From Trigonopsis variabilis (lineage: Eukaryota > Ascomycota > Trigonopsidomycetes > Trigonopsidales > Trigonopsidaceae): DNA of 64,000 nt. The position numbers and the translations under genes were made by a program. The stretch is from positions 744,001 through 808,000 of the forward strand of contig PPXM03000003.1 of NCBI GenBank assembly GCA_003707065.3. Reading direction: 5' to 3'. The notes beneath the pieces are model-generated. The model did no database searches. It worked only from the letters and a program-made list of their open reading frames with translations, and was not told the DNA's origin. Position 1 is the first letter of the stretch, and the number at the start of each line of letters is the position of its first letter. This document shows, piece by piece, positions 31,353-47,075 of this stretch.

Positions 31353-32192
31353 TTAATAATGATAATTCGGATATACTCCATCCAGAGAACCGTAAATCTG
31401 GTTCCCATAGCCATCGTTATAGACTCCGTCATTCTGGTCTTCATTATCTGCCGATTGACGGTCACTTGGTTGAGACTCTTCCGGCTCGACAGATGGCCGT
31501 CCTTCAAAGATGTCCTGTTCAGAGGGCTCCTGCTGGGAGTACGTCTGATTCACATTAAGCGGTTGAGAAGTAGACTGAGGCGGTTGACGGAAGTATTGGG
31601 TAGATTGAGAGGACTTTCTAGTTGTAGGGACAGCATCCTCTCGAGGAACAATATCTATAAGAAAATCAAACATGTCACTCTTCTGTAATGCGCAAGCAAT
31701 GTCGCTTCGCTGCAGTGTTCGTCGTTTATTCATTTCGGCATGGATCCACGCCCTCATGGTCAGTTCCGTGATAAAAATATCGCATCCTTTTGCAAAAAGA
31801 ATCGGAGCCTCTGCACTAATCATCTTGACATCTTCGTCAGCTTTCATAACCTTTTTAATACGCGCCAAAGGCAGTTGATGGACCTTGAAATCATGGTCAT
31901 CTTGCTCAATGGAGTTTATGGTTTCTTGCCAATAGGCCATCAAAATATTCCGGTATTGACCTTCTAGACCTTGCGTCACATTGCTAAAAGTACCACTAAT
32001 TAAACCACTCTCTGGAGGAATGGCTCGAGCTGCCGCTGAAGCAGCTCCATAGTGACCTCCGGTCGGTAAGACTTCCTGATATCTTTCCGAGATAGATTCG
32101 TTTGTTCCATTATTATTCGATTCATTTTGACCCTCTCCAGATAGATTCTCCAGAGATTGGTCAAATGGAAGCTCTGATTGGGTGTATTCCAT
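31353..32192 (-). CDS. HAP5: CCAAT-binding factor subunit Hap5 / NF-YC
   Basis: Histone-fold subunit of the HAP/NF-Y complex that binds CCAAT boxes with Hap2 and Hap3, and in fungi controls respiration and iron genes. 279 residues from the first ATG (32192); the frame is open 12 codons further but without ATG. The histone fold (about residues 110-195) shows [40 protein letters not shown] and [20 protein letters not shown], all highly conserved. Flanks are Gln/Ser/Asn-rich and likely disordered. Nuclear. Divergent from FCF2. Confidence 0.95.
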
Positions 32193-32489
32193 CGAATGGG
32201 CTCCGGGGCTCGTAGTATTGATGCTCACGACGAGATGGTTGCTATGGCAGAAAATTTCTATCCTTCAGTACGCTTCCTCTTTCCCTTCGGCTGAGTTGAC
32301 GGATTTCCATTTTTTTCTTGGTTGGTTTAAGTCGCATAGCCTATTCAATATTCTGTGACTCTTACCTCGTTAGTCTTATAGAAGATATCCACTTAGGTTC
32401 TATTCTATTGAGTCTGGGAATCTGTGCTGCTGTCAGTTGATTGTCGCTGTTGCATTAAAAGGCTCATTTACACGAAATTTCTTGATCTA

Positions 32490-33484
32490 ATGGGGCTACT
32501 TTCACTTTTCTCCTCCTCAAATGCACAAGCTGATTTAAGGAAGCTGCCCATGAAAGAGGGAAAAGGGACAACTGTGGATCAAATAACTGAGTTCCTGGAC
32601 TGTCAAGAACAGGAAGAAGATTCCCTCGATGCATTGTTCAATGAAGCTGAAAAATCATTGTCAAATAAAGTCAAGACATCGAGTGAGCCAACGATTTTTG
32701 ATGAGATTATGGAGTTTGAGCGGAAGTCGTGGAAGAAAATACCAGAGCTGCGGGCAAAGGATGAAGAGATGGACTATGACAACTTAATACATAACCTCCC
32801 TCTGAAGCATACTAAAAATGGTGTTGCTCATGTCGACACTGCGGTTTTTGCCAGGGATAAGAATGCTAAAGCTGCGAAATCATTTGAGACTATAATAGAT
32901 CCTATCATAATGGCTAAGCAGCCTTCCAAAAAGGTACGTGATTTCTTAATCTGTTCATTTATCGGTCGATGATGATGTTTTTCTTTAATACACGCGAGCA
33001 GTACAAAGAGCCCGTTATGGTGTCTCCGGCTGTTGTGAACTATTCTTATTGTCATAGTTACACTGAGGCCACGATTATGGACAGCCATCATAAAATCATT
33101 ACTAACTTACAGGAACCGGTAACGGCCGGAAAGAACTGGTTTAATATGCCCGAAACAGAAATCACTCCTCAGATAAAGCGGGATCTGCAACTTCTTAAAA
33201 TGCGGCACGTTCTCGACCCCAAACGGCACTACAAAAAAGACAATTCAAAAAGCTTTCCGAAATACTTTCAAACGGGAACCATTGTGGAAGGTCCAACTGA
33301 GTTTTACTCGGCCCGGCTTTCAAAGGCTGAGCGAAAACAGACTCTTGCCGACGAGATCCTGGCAAGTGAGGAAGCAAAGACATATTTCAAAAGAAGATAT
33401 GCCGAGATTCAGACCAAGAAGACGTCGGGCAAGAAAGGGCATTACAAGCGGCTGCAGGCAGCTAGGCACAAGCGGGGATATTAA
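32490..33484 (+). CDS. FCF2: Pre-rRNA processing factor Fcf2
   Basis: Nucleolar SSU-processome protein needed for early cleavages that make 18S rRNA. Two exons, 32490-32933 and 33113-33484, giving 271 residues. The N-terminal half is acidic and coiled (LDALFNEAEKSLSNKVK). The Fcf2 domain lies in exon 2: TAGKNWFNMPETEITPQIKR, LQLLKMRHVLDPKRHYKKD, FPKYFQTGTIVEGPTEFYSA, KAERKQTLADEILASEEAK and a basic tail. The intron (32934-33112, 179 nt) is about five times longer than the typical intron of this window and carries a box C/D snoRNA. The ATG at 32490 is the first in frame. Confidence 0.95.
32961..33075 (+). ncRNA. snR63: Box C/D snoRNA in FCF2 intron, snR63-like (guide for 25S Am2256)
   Basis: C box ATGATGA at 32969-32975 and D box CTGA at 33063-33066. 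The nucleotides around them can form a short terminal stem (GGTC at 32964-32967 with GGCC at 33067-33070, plus ATC/GAT outside it). Directly upstream of the D box, 33051-33061 (GTCATAGTTAC) is a perfect 11-nt complement of GTAACTATGAC, the universally conserved helix 69 of large-subunit rRNA. The fifth base before the D box (T at 33058) pairs with the A equal to yeast 25S A2256, the site set by snR63 (human A3739, SNORD46). The methylation rule and site numbers are known biology; the ends of the RNA and its processing from the intron are inferred. It sits 28 nt from the donor and 37 nt from the acceptor. Confidence 0.85.
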
Positions 33485-33554: not shown

Positions 33555-34319
33555 TTATTGTTCACTGAGCATTTTTTTGATCATCGAGCCCCATCCTTCT
33601 GCCTGCGAGGTGGTGGGTATGACGATCTTGTAAGGAAACAACGTTGAGTCGACTGCCGTAATGGGAGGTATGTGGTCGCGATTTTCGTTTGCAAACATGA
33701 TAATCTCCACTAAGGCTCTTCGTAGTTCCTGCTCGGTTTCCTGGCGCAGAGCTATCTTTTCATTGTCGCTCCTTCCGGGCCCCAGGGCGGTGATGTTAAA
33801 GACCCATTGTTCCCAGCATTGGTCTTCGCCTTTGAATAGCCAACCAGGTCTTCGACCTTCTGATTTTTTTTCAAAAAATTGGATAATTAACTGAGTAGAC
33901 GAGTTTTGAGGTATTTCCAGACTTGAGATTAGTGATGATGACGATTGCAAAGACCGAGGGTGATTCCCTGATTCAGGAGTGCTTGAATCTTGAGTTTCCT
34001 CAGCCTGTGGCACTGAAGGGATGGTGTCCAAGATTTTAGCGAACTGAGAGACCTTGTCATTGATCTGAATTGTGACCTGAGGGACGTCAATGGCCATCTA
34101 GAGACTTAGAAGACGCTCCACGTAGTAAACTTACATAAGTCACATCGAGAACTTCTCTCATAGTCTTGAATGGTTGGACTGAACCAAAATAACGCTGAAA
34201 AAAGACAGAGTTTATCAATGCTAGTCATGTCAGTAGAGAAGTCAAAAAGTGACGGTTTTACCTTTGATAACATCAGAGGCTTGAGATCTATCTAGTCTAA
34301 TATCAATCACAGCATTCAT
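33555..34319 (-). CDS. atg101: Autophagy protein Atg101
   Basis: HORMA-domain partner of Atg13 in the Atg1 initiation complex; absent from budding yeast but present in fission yeast and most fungi. Three exons: 34262-34319, 34135-34220, 33555-34097 (introns 41 and 37 nt), giving 228 residues. Spliced N-terminus reads MNAVIDIRLDRSQASDVIK then ALINSVFFQRYFGSVQPF and EVLDVTYMAIDVPQVTI, matching the family. A Ser-rich insertion follows, then LIIQFFEKKS, WEQWVFNITALG, ELRRALVEIIMFANENRDHI-type helix and the C-terminal FPYKIVIPTTSQAEGWG. Phases agree at both junctions. Confidence 0.9.
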
Positions 34320-37535: not shown

Positions 37536-39625
37536 ATGAACGACGACAATCTTCTGGCGCTGGACGACCACGAGGCGTCGTCAGCGCCTCCATCCTTTGC
37601 CATCGATCCTGCTTTAGGTGGTTCTGGTGCCGTCCCCCGGCCGACTGATGATCATGATGGTGAACATTCCCACCAGCTCGAAGCTCTCTTGAAAGACCGA
37701 TATGATGAAATTGAGCTGGCTCGAGCAGTCACACAACAGCAACAACAGGAAGCATTAGCTCATGTTCACGGTCACCACGGCCACCCTCATAACGTTCTTC
37801 CCCATGCTACCCATCCTCAATTGGTCGGGGTACGCCGACCCGAAATAACTGGTCAAGTACACGCTAAGCCAAGAGCTCGAAAAAGCATGGGTGGGCCAGA
37901 AGAAACCGAAGATGAACTTAAGCGGATTGCAGGAGAGTTTCTGAATGTGAGCGTTGAGGAGCTCGCCCAAAAAGTGCGATATGATGATACGCTACCGAGC
38001 GCGGAAAAGACGCGTCAAGTCTTTGGAATGAATTGGCTGATGCGGTCATGTGAACTTGTGCCTGATAAGGCCGTTCCCCGAAACCGGATTTATGCTCGGT
38101 ATGTGAACGTGTGTGCTTCGCTTCAAATCAAGCCCTTGAACCCTGCATCTTTTGGCAAGCTGGTGCGGATTGTTTATCCTGATATAAAAACTCGTCGGTT
38201 AGGGGTACGGGGTCAGTCGAAATATCACTATTGTGGCATCCAACTACTGGATGAAGGACCTACAAACTCGGGTACGGAGATTTGAAGGGCTCTGGTGCGT
38301 CGTGTGGGTTTGCTGGGCTTTATGATTTCTGGTTTTTCTTGTGCGTTTAGCCCTCACGTCCACCACCCCTAGTGACGCTTGTACATCTACTAATACATAT
38401 GCTTTCGTTGTTCCACACAGCCAACATTAGTCTTTCTTCTTTTGGCTCGCCCTTGGACCAGTCCTACGATTTCGACGACTCACCTGTTCATCAATCTGAC
38501 TCTACAAATCAAGAGAATCTTTTCAGTAGCAAACAGCAAGTTCCGGTCTCAGATTCTGTTTCTGTCGACCTGAAGGCCAAAGTGTCTGTTTCGTCAGATA
38601 CCCAACTCCGCAAGGAAGGAGAGAGTATCTCTACTGAATGTTTACTGCCTGATATCCGCCCCTACCTCCCTGATGGATTCGATGAAGACGCAGCTGTGAC
38701 TTTGGCGGCTTTATATCAGTCGTACTGTCATTCGCTTGCCGAAAATATTCGTTTTATGCAGCTCAAACAGTTTAATGTCAATTGTGTTTCCTTTTATCGA
38801 CAACTCACTGTTCCCGTCCAGCGTGTCCTGGCCCAACCAACAGTATGGCAATGGATCCAACGCGCCGATTGGATATTATATAAGGTCATTCTTCGTCTTC
38901 TAGGACAGCTTGCTCTTAGTATTGTTCCTCCGAATGTCCTTCAGCTTCTTCGGTCCTTCTCCCTCACTCTTCAAGATACCATCGAAAACACGTTTGCTCA
39001 AGTTTCTCCTGAACTTGTTCGTCATAAATTAGTGCCTGCCTCAAGGTTTTGCCAGCTTTTAGGCCGATTATTACGCGTAAATGAAACTGCTCATGCAGCA
39101 GGTAAGATTTTAGCCCATGATCCTGATCGAGAGTTGATGAAAACGGACTGGACGAAATACGTTCAAGGTAAAATGATAAGTGAACAAGATGCTCCTTGTG
39201 AGGCCGTAAAGGTGGCAGATATTCTTGATAACGATATGCCTCAATTATTGACGGTACAGGACAAGAGCGAGTCTGAAGGAATAATTGAAGTGTGGGCTCG
39301 ATATTTGGAACAATTGCCTCGTCAATTTGAACATATTTCTCCCCGCTTATATTTGGTGTGCTCAAGTACAATTATGACTAGTGCCTTACGAGAAGTGACG
39401 TTAAATGGAGGAGCAGCGTTTGGAGCATGGTGGGTGATTCGATGTTGGATGGATGAGTGGTTACTGTGGAATGCCGAATGGGCAGCTTTTATGGCTACGG
39501 AGTATGTCGACCCTCTGACTAGATGCGATTTAATCAGTCAAGCTTCATATTTGAAAGGTTTTTCTATCGCTCGTGATAAAGAGCCGGAGTTATATAAAGC
39601 GTTAATGCATTTGCCTCAGAATTGA
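37536..39625 (+). CDS. RFX family winged-helix transcription factor
   Basis: RFX proteins bind X-boxes; relatives are Crt1 in budding yeast (DNA-damage repressor of RNR genes) and Sak1 in fission yeast. Three exons: 37536-38271, 38351-38380, 38421-39625, giving 656 residues; exon 2 is only 30 nt and is needed to keep the frame. The DNA-binding domain is at about 163-237 (FGMNWLMRSCELVPDKAVPR, IYARYVNVCASLQIKPLNPA, RRLGVRGQSKYHYCGIQLL). The N-terminus is His/Gln-rich. The C-terminal half (residues about 300-650) holds the RFX dimerisation and extended helical region. Intron 1 is 79 nt, intron 2 is 40 nt with an ACTAATA branch site. Own promoter contains X-box half-sites. Confidence 0.92.
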
Positions 39626-45974: not shown

Positions 45975-47075
45975 TTATTTCTCTCCTGCCAGTCCAGAAA
46001 TGGACAAGTCTCTCATTCCTTGGAGAACCTGTTCAACCTTATTATCTAACTGGCCACTGGCATATTCCTCTCTAGTACTAGCATCCATATATTGTTGTAC
46101 TTGAGCCAATCTCGTATAGCTCTCCGTACAGAAGCGTAACTGGATCTTCACTAGAGCTTCGAAACTTGGGTCAAAATAAGGAACCCTCAGGTCAATTAAC
46201 TGTGGTAACTCTTGGCTTAATTGATTATTAAGCTCATCATAAACTGCCTTTGCAGCCTCCAATTCCTTCTCAGCCCTCGGCAGCTTATGTGGATCATCTG
46301 ATGGTTTTTCAATCAATTTCCTAACCTTTGCCCTCATACCATCGTAATCCAATTGTTTATGAGCTCTTTTCTTGATTGCATCATTGATGTTGGAAAAAAA
46401 GGCACAAAATCGAGATATAGGGTCCAGGACTGTCTCCCTATACGGACCATCTAATGCTTTCACTGTTTCGGCATCTAGCTCTTCAACAGCCGTCAGATAG
46501 TATTTGGAGATTCCATCTCTGGAGCCACTATCTCCGTAAAATGCATCAATAGTTTGAGCTATGCTTGTCTGAGCAGCTGTCATAGCCCTTAATGAGTCCA
46601 AAAATCCTTTGGCTTCCTTTTGAAGCTTATTCGCAGATGCTTCTAGCCTATATAGTTAATCTCTCTCCCTCTTGGCCTCAACTTACGCCCGATACCTCCT
46701 CTCCTCTAGTTCGTATTCACGATCAACTGTCCTCTCAACTCGGCCCGTCTTCATCATGACCTGCCATTAGCGCTGAAATCAAAATCTTTCGAGAGTTCCC
46801 ATGAGCTCCCACTGATCGCTTCATATCCCAGGCCCAATCCATCTCTTAACCCAAAAGAACCATATCCTTGCGAGACTCAATTAAATTTAGCAGTTATAAC
46901 CATAAACTTGAGTGAATATCAACCATCGATATCTTTTAGCCAAACGATCCGAGGTTGCCTCTCGACGATCGGTACCAACCAATCGACCCTCTTAGCGCGA
47001 TATTTATTATCGCCTATCTGTACTCACCGATGTTCCCGCTCTATTGACCGCCTTCTTAAAGCCAGTCCAACTCAT
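45975..47075 (-). CDS. RVS161: BAR-domain amphiphysin-like protein Rvs161
   Basis: Bends membranes in endocytosis and acts with Rvs167. Three exons: 47028-47075, 46687-46760, 45975-46647, giving 264 residues, identical in size to the yeast protein (265). The spliced start reads MSWTGFKKAVNRAGTS, then VMMKTGRVERTVDREYELEE and ANKLQKEAKGFLDSLRAM, as in all Rvs161 proteins; the rest is the coiled BAR domain (YDGMRAKVRKLIEKPSDDPH, LRVPYFDPSFEALVKIQLRF, YTRLAQVQQYM). Intron 1 is 267 nt, much longer than usual here; intron 2 is 39 nt. No SH3 domain, as expected for Rvs161. Confidence 0.95.

Follow-up and report, generated by a model that had tools for sequence, protein, structure and literature searches.

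Guides of helix 69 and their host genes

Methylation of A2256 in helix 69 of 25S rRNA (Am2256) is guided by snR63 (extracts of PMC5199042 and PMC8307265), and Psi2258 and Psi2260 of the same helix are given as targets of snR191 in the available text of PMC8307265. In the accessible part of PMC8817022, a table row pairs the snR63 site with Am3739/U46, which by reading of the columns is the human site. Relatives of snR63 have been described in other hosts. In Neurospora crassa, where 45 of the 55 C/D snoRNAs are intronic, CD33 is a 102-nt intronic RNA with a D guide directed at 26S-Am2218 and is listed beside snR63/U46 (PMC2780460, available portion). The chicken homologue GGgCD47 resides in introns 2 and 3 of RPS8 and pairs over 11 nt at 28S-A-3249 (extract of PMC2653536). 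Vertebrate U40/U46 (SNORD46), listed beside snR63, is intronic like the candidate described here, with a ribosomal protein gene rather than FCF2 as its host. The loci hosting intronic snoRNAs are strongly enriched for ribosome biogenesis, according to the available text of PMC12309372, so that a ribosome-assembly gene is the expected kind of host. Such is the case for snR191, whose host in yeasts is NOG2 (PMC4202332, in extract).

Fcf2 is a nucleolar protein present on 90S particles and required for 40S synthesis and 35S processing, as described in the accessible parts of PMC9196750 and PMC2749941. No earlier report of FCF2 as a snoRNA host was found in the openly licensed literature, and the available parts of PMC3596301 and PMC8536713 do not name a host for snR63.

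The FCF2 gene and its intron

The window analysed here is a single 64-kb stretch of Trigonopsis variabilis DNA, in which FCF2 lies on the forward strand as two exons separated by a 179-nt intron. Exon 1 (32490–32933, start codon at 32490) was delineated from the spliced frame and protein alignment, and exon 2 (33113–33484) contains the Fcf2 domain (Pfam PF08698, protein residues 152–243, E = 1.9e-42). The intron (32934–33112) was defined by direct reading, a splice test, and gapless alignment over the junction. Its signals comprise the 5' splice site GTACGT, the branch site TACTAAC at 33100–33106, and the acceptor CAG at 33110–33112, and its termini, read directly, are GTACGT and TACTAACTTACAG. 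Once 32934–33112 is spliced out, 271 residues stand in one open frame, whereas the unspliced frame hits stops within the intron. The spliced product aligned without a gap at the splice junction to eight fungal Fcf2 proteins, which were picked by hand among the 120 matches listed, of 635 in total; identity over the alignment was 42–49% to proteins of Lipomyces, Sugiyamaella, Trichomonascus, Limtongia, and Dipodascopsis and 39–40% to those of two filamentous ascomycetes, values that point to a probable early-branching budding yeast or a near relative of one. With its CTAACTT...AG end, the FCF2 intron also resembles the introns proposed around U14, snR190, and U24 of the same genome. Divergently from FCF2, about 260 bp off its start codon, the reverse strand carries a histone-fold ORF (31353–32228), which we take, by eye, to be HAP5/NF-YC-like.

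A candidate box C/D snoRNA in the FCF2 intron

The intron contains a predicted box C/D snoRNA of the snR63 type, extending over approximately 107 nt from inner stem to inner stem (32964–33070, forward strand) and recognised by its boxes, guide, and stem, and by a sub-cut-off match to the Rfam snR63 family. A C box, ATGATGA, that fits RTGATGA perfectly lies near the 5' end (32969–32975), and a perfect D box, CTGA, lies near the 3' end (33063–33066), as in box C/D RNAs generally. Directly upstream of the latter, and separated from it by one base, an A, is the guide GTCATAGTTAC (33051–33061). All three elements are inside the one intron; the preliminary description had placed the 179-nt FCF2 intron, the C box at 32969, the D box at 33063, and the 11-nt guide just so. 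Measured from its inner stem, the candidate is separated from the 5' splice site by 30 nt and from the 3' splice site by 42 nt; U14 of this genome gives identical distances between its Rfam ends and its proposed splice sites.

The guide is the complement of GTAACTATGAC, the conserved helix 69 stretch of yeast 25S rRNA. Box C/D guides are expected to offer at least 10 nt beside the D box and to set the target nucleotide opposite the D+5 base; here, relative to the yeast sequence, 11 nt pair, with a mismatch on either side. The fifth base upstream of the D box, T33058, is opposite the fourth base of GTAACTATGAC. When the published assignments of Am2256/snR63, Psi2258, and Psi2260 are mapped onto this conserved yeast sequence, the faced base is the A2256 equivalent, at which an snR63/SNORD46 guide would be aimed. 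The D+5 count, the Am2256/snR63 literature, and the Fcf2 domain match thus bear out the target, the D+5 position, and the host gene that had been proposed from a first inspection.

Searches with the 5.8S family and with a 128-base yeast 25S fragment gave no match in the assembly, the fragment search being run without a positive control, and the exact target word occurs at seven places in the genome, none of which is rRNA as judged by its flanks. Eukaryotic rDNA likewise gave no match in viral contigs. It is likely that the rDNA array is missing from the T. variabilis assembly.

Pairing of the intron flanks and folding

The short closing stem noted earlier is present and proved longer than described. 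The inner stem is formed by GGTC (32964–32967) and GGCC (33067–33070), and it is continued outwards as a composite closing stem, the 5' arm of which (32951–32967) consists of CTGTTCAT at 32951–32958 followed by ATCGGTC at 32961–32967, and the 3' arm of which (33067–33084) consists of GGCC, GAT at 33073–33075, and ATGGACAG at 33077–33084. The three segments, of 8 bp for CTGTTCAT/ATGGACAG, 3 bp for ATC/GAT, and 4 bp for GGTC/GGCC, add up to 15 bp, beyond which five outer pairs join 32940–32944 to 33093–33097. The duplex energy of the whole flank pairing, outer pairs included, is −17.2 kcal/mol; dinucleotide shuffles averaged −8.4, and 2 of 500 were as good. The terminal or external stem that joins the C and D boxes in this class of RNA is therefore provided by the flank pairing, the inner stem being absent from minimum-energy folds. 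Comparable flank pairing was obtained for U14 of the same genome (3/500 shuffles as good), whereas that of snR190 and U24 was unremarkable (86/500 and 116/500, respectively).

No excess fold stability relative to shuffles was found, either for the snoRNA (z = 0.64) or for the whole intron (z = −0.27). The whole-intron fold keeps the 8-bp part of the stem, and GGTC/GGCC is formed in neither the snoRNA fold nor the intron fold. In these folds the guide sits in a local hairpin, in which it pairs with GUGAACUAU upstream. The latter was considered as a target mimic and rejected, since 635 of 1000 shuffles pair equally well.

Comparison with snR63 and its relatives

No Rfam family reached its own cut-off in the 64-kb window. 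The snR63 family matched at 32968–33068 with 13.8 bits (E = 0.31), against a cut-off of 50, which is a curation threshold rather than a biological criterion and which the candidate does not reach. The alignment covers the model from position 1 to 255, end to end, with 57 nt standing for 201 model positions, and outside the guide the candidate and the model have six bases in common, namely CUUAU just upstream of it and the A before the D box. Other weak matches were to snoR442, which has the same guide, and to SNORD116, ceN44, and MIR529, which were taken as chance; the snR63 score is below such chance-level scores of unrelated families (17.4 bits for SNORD116, for example). When the whole genome was searched with snR63 at E = 0.001, no match was returned, the FCF2 site included, and the controls of that search gave no signal either. 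The same comparison applied to control snoRNAs of this genome showed U14 (54.2 bits, cut-off 64), snR191 (38.8, cut-off 46), and snR190, itself weak (24, cut-off 40, E = 0.043), to fall short, and U24 (49.6, cut-off 41) and snR87 (47.8, cut-off 37) to pass. With three of the five controls and the snR63-type candidate below threshold, it can be concluded that, in this genome, certain RNAs of this kind escape detection at the Rfam cut-offs.

The yeast snR63 gene is independently transcribed and the snR63 model has 255 positions, whereas the candidate is intronic and has about 107 nt. Its predicted target is that of snR63 of S. cerevisiae (RF01259), Am2256 (available parts of PMC5199042 and PMC8307265), and it shares with snR63 the guide, the ACACTGA context, and the upstream CUUAU. 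In size and intronic setting, the candidate matches CD33 of N. crassa, the pairing of which is 13 nt as compared with 11 nt here (PMC2780460, in extract). The designation as the snR63 orthologue, put forward earlier, holds as regards the predicted target; a possible common descent would draw on that target, on the end-to-end, sub-threshold Rfam alignment, and on the six non-guide bases.

Other snoRNAs in proposed introns of the genome

A match to snR191 was found in a proposed 289-nt intron of an NGP1NT-domain gene (domain E = 1.4e-56; locus L039, G000:C5, 3151–3439). This gene is presumably the NOG2 homologue. As in yeasts (PMC4202332, in extract), and judging here by sequence, a ribosome-assembly gene would thus carry a helix 69 guide within an intron. 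In this snR191 is like the FCF2 candidate, from which it differs in being a box H/ACA RNA, in directing pseudouridylation, and in its host. The proposed intron bounds at the snR191, U14, snR190, and U24 loci were read from splice-site and branch-site words, and U14 and U24 both lie between splice-like sites.

At a second locus (L040, G000:C8), an snR190-like sequence (1307–1431) and U14 (1501–1610) occupy tandem introns, 1273–1470 and 1471–1652 by splice-site words, which abut at TAG/GTATGG with zero exon between them. Intron–intron snoRNA clusters have been published for other fungi (available text of PMC3596301). At a third (L041, G000:C6), the stretch around U24 (1501–1578) is intron-like, 125 nt long, and starts with GTACGT straight after the GCAG following snR87 (1363–1470); this junction is possibly another zero-length exon, although towards snR87 a canonical branch site was not seen.

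Chance occurrence and rival explanations

The genome searched comprises 11.35 Mb in 15 contigs. The guide-plus-D word TCATAGTTACNCTGA occurs there once exactly, three times with one mismatch, and 70 times with two, as compared with 107 places within two mismatches for the reversed control word. A full RTGATGA at 46–135 nt upstream of the D box accompanies 1 of these 74 near places, that in the FCF2 intron. Thirteen further places, each differing from the word at two positions, show a 6-of-7 C box, in 7 cases with a 4–5 bp stem, and these were counted as background. The guide-to-D spacing was fixed at one base in this search, other spacings being covered for the exact 11-mer alone; among the seven places of the latter, CTGA stands beside the guide in the FCF2 intron alone, and CTGT follows directly at one other. 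That a different locus carries the only A2256 guide had been named as an outcome that would speak against the proposal. In the part of this check that was run, which covered CTGA-type guide-plus-D words at the one-base spacing, exact or with up to two mismatches, and the exact 11-mer at any spacing, no second place combined this guide and D box with a full C box.

Under a Markov-1 model, the combination of C box, guide, and D box is expected 3.5e-6 times by chance in the 64-kb window, both strands included. Since the choice might as well have fallen on any of about 100 known methylation sites, correction for these brings the expectation to approximately 3.5e-4. The guide-plus-D word with up to two mismatches was found once in the window against 0.09 expected, with at least one occurrence in 9 of 100 shuffles. 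Prokaryote genomes, in which no such snoRNA is expected, were also searched, over 257 billion bases, for a pattern of TGATGA, 70–100 nt of any sequence, guide, and D box; the pattern returned two records, both from Porphyromonadaceae and with the same 97-nt span, which were treated as background. The snoRNA pattern gave no match in viral contigs. C...D pairs with a stem of at least 4 bp number four in the window, the FCF2 intron one included. The other three, with 4–5 bp stems, lie at 33935–34065 and 37981–38037 on the forward strand and at 46240–46190 on the reverse strand and were taken as chance. Boxes and stem alone accordingly prove little, and the case rests on the guide and the intron.

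These counts bear on the possibility of an ordinary intron that happens to contain C-like, D-like, and guide-like words. The number of C...D pairs in the window, the 6-of-7 C boxes at 13 of the 74 near places, the sub-threshold Rfam score, and the folding without excess stability are what would be seen in that case, but the very low expected number of triples, the single exact word in the genome, the full C box at 1 of 74 places, the wholly intronic position of the motif, and flank pairing equalled in 2 of 500 shuffles make it very unlikely. We consider it just as improbable that the sequence is a decayed snoRNA, a former A2256 guide now unexpressed or unused: its pairing is shorter than the 13 nt of N. 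crassa (PMC2780460, in extract), but boxes and guide are intact, the flanks still pair, and no other guide-plus-D word with a full C box was found in the genome, so that loss of the FCF2-intron RNA would leave the site with no visible guide. Least probable of all is that A2256 is a secondary target and that the D' region of the RNA serves a different or a further one. The approximately 75 nt between C box and guide would leave room for a D' guide, and by eye they contain a D'-like CTGT (33030) and degenerate C'-like words (5 of 7 bases, beginning at 33014 and 33032), but no CTGA-type D' beside a C' was found by eye, snR63, U46, and CD33 each being given the A2256-type site only in the available parts of PMC2780460, PMC5199042, PMC8307265, and PMC8817022.

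Proposed function and significance

The FCF2 intron most probably encodes a box C/D snoRNA of about 100–107 nt that works like snR63/U46. The intron, the boxes, the guide, their spacing, the pairing flanks, and the genome-unique guide-plus-D word are present in the DNA itself; what is known of the family allows expression, assembly, trimming, pairing with the rRNA of this species, and methylation to be predicted. The FCF2 pre-mRNA would be spliced, the complementary intron flanks would bring the C and D boxes together for assembly of the C/D core proteins, and exonucleases would shorten the debranched intron until the protected snoRNA is left. In the resulting snoRNP, the guide would then pair over 11 nt with helix 69 of 25S rRNA, upon which fibrillarin would methylate the 2'-OH of the A2256 equivalent.

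The coupling of guide and factor supply through the intron, raised in the preliminary description as something that could occur, is an idea that applies to snoRNA hosts in general (available text of PMC12309372). Fcf2 acts on the 40S/35S side (extract of PMC2749941), whereas the predicted guide would act on 25S rRNA. It is conceivable, although doubtful, that two helix 69 guides ride the introns of assembly genes here, snR191 in NOG2 and the snR63-type RNA in FCF2, such that modification of the intersubunit bridge is kept in step with 60S- and 40S-side factors and the FCF2 intron is retained for its RNA. The prevailing view of how guide RNAs work is unchanged by this locus. What the candidate would add is a host gene, FCF2, for a conserved methylation guide of helix 69, and, together with snR191, U14, and U24, it suggests that this fungus keeps several of its guides in introns.
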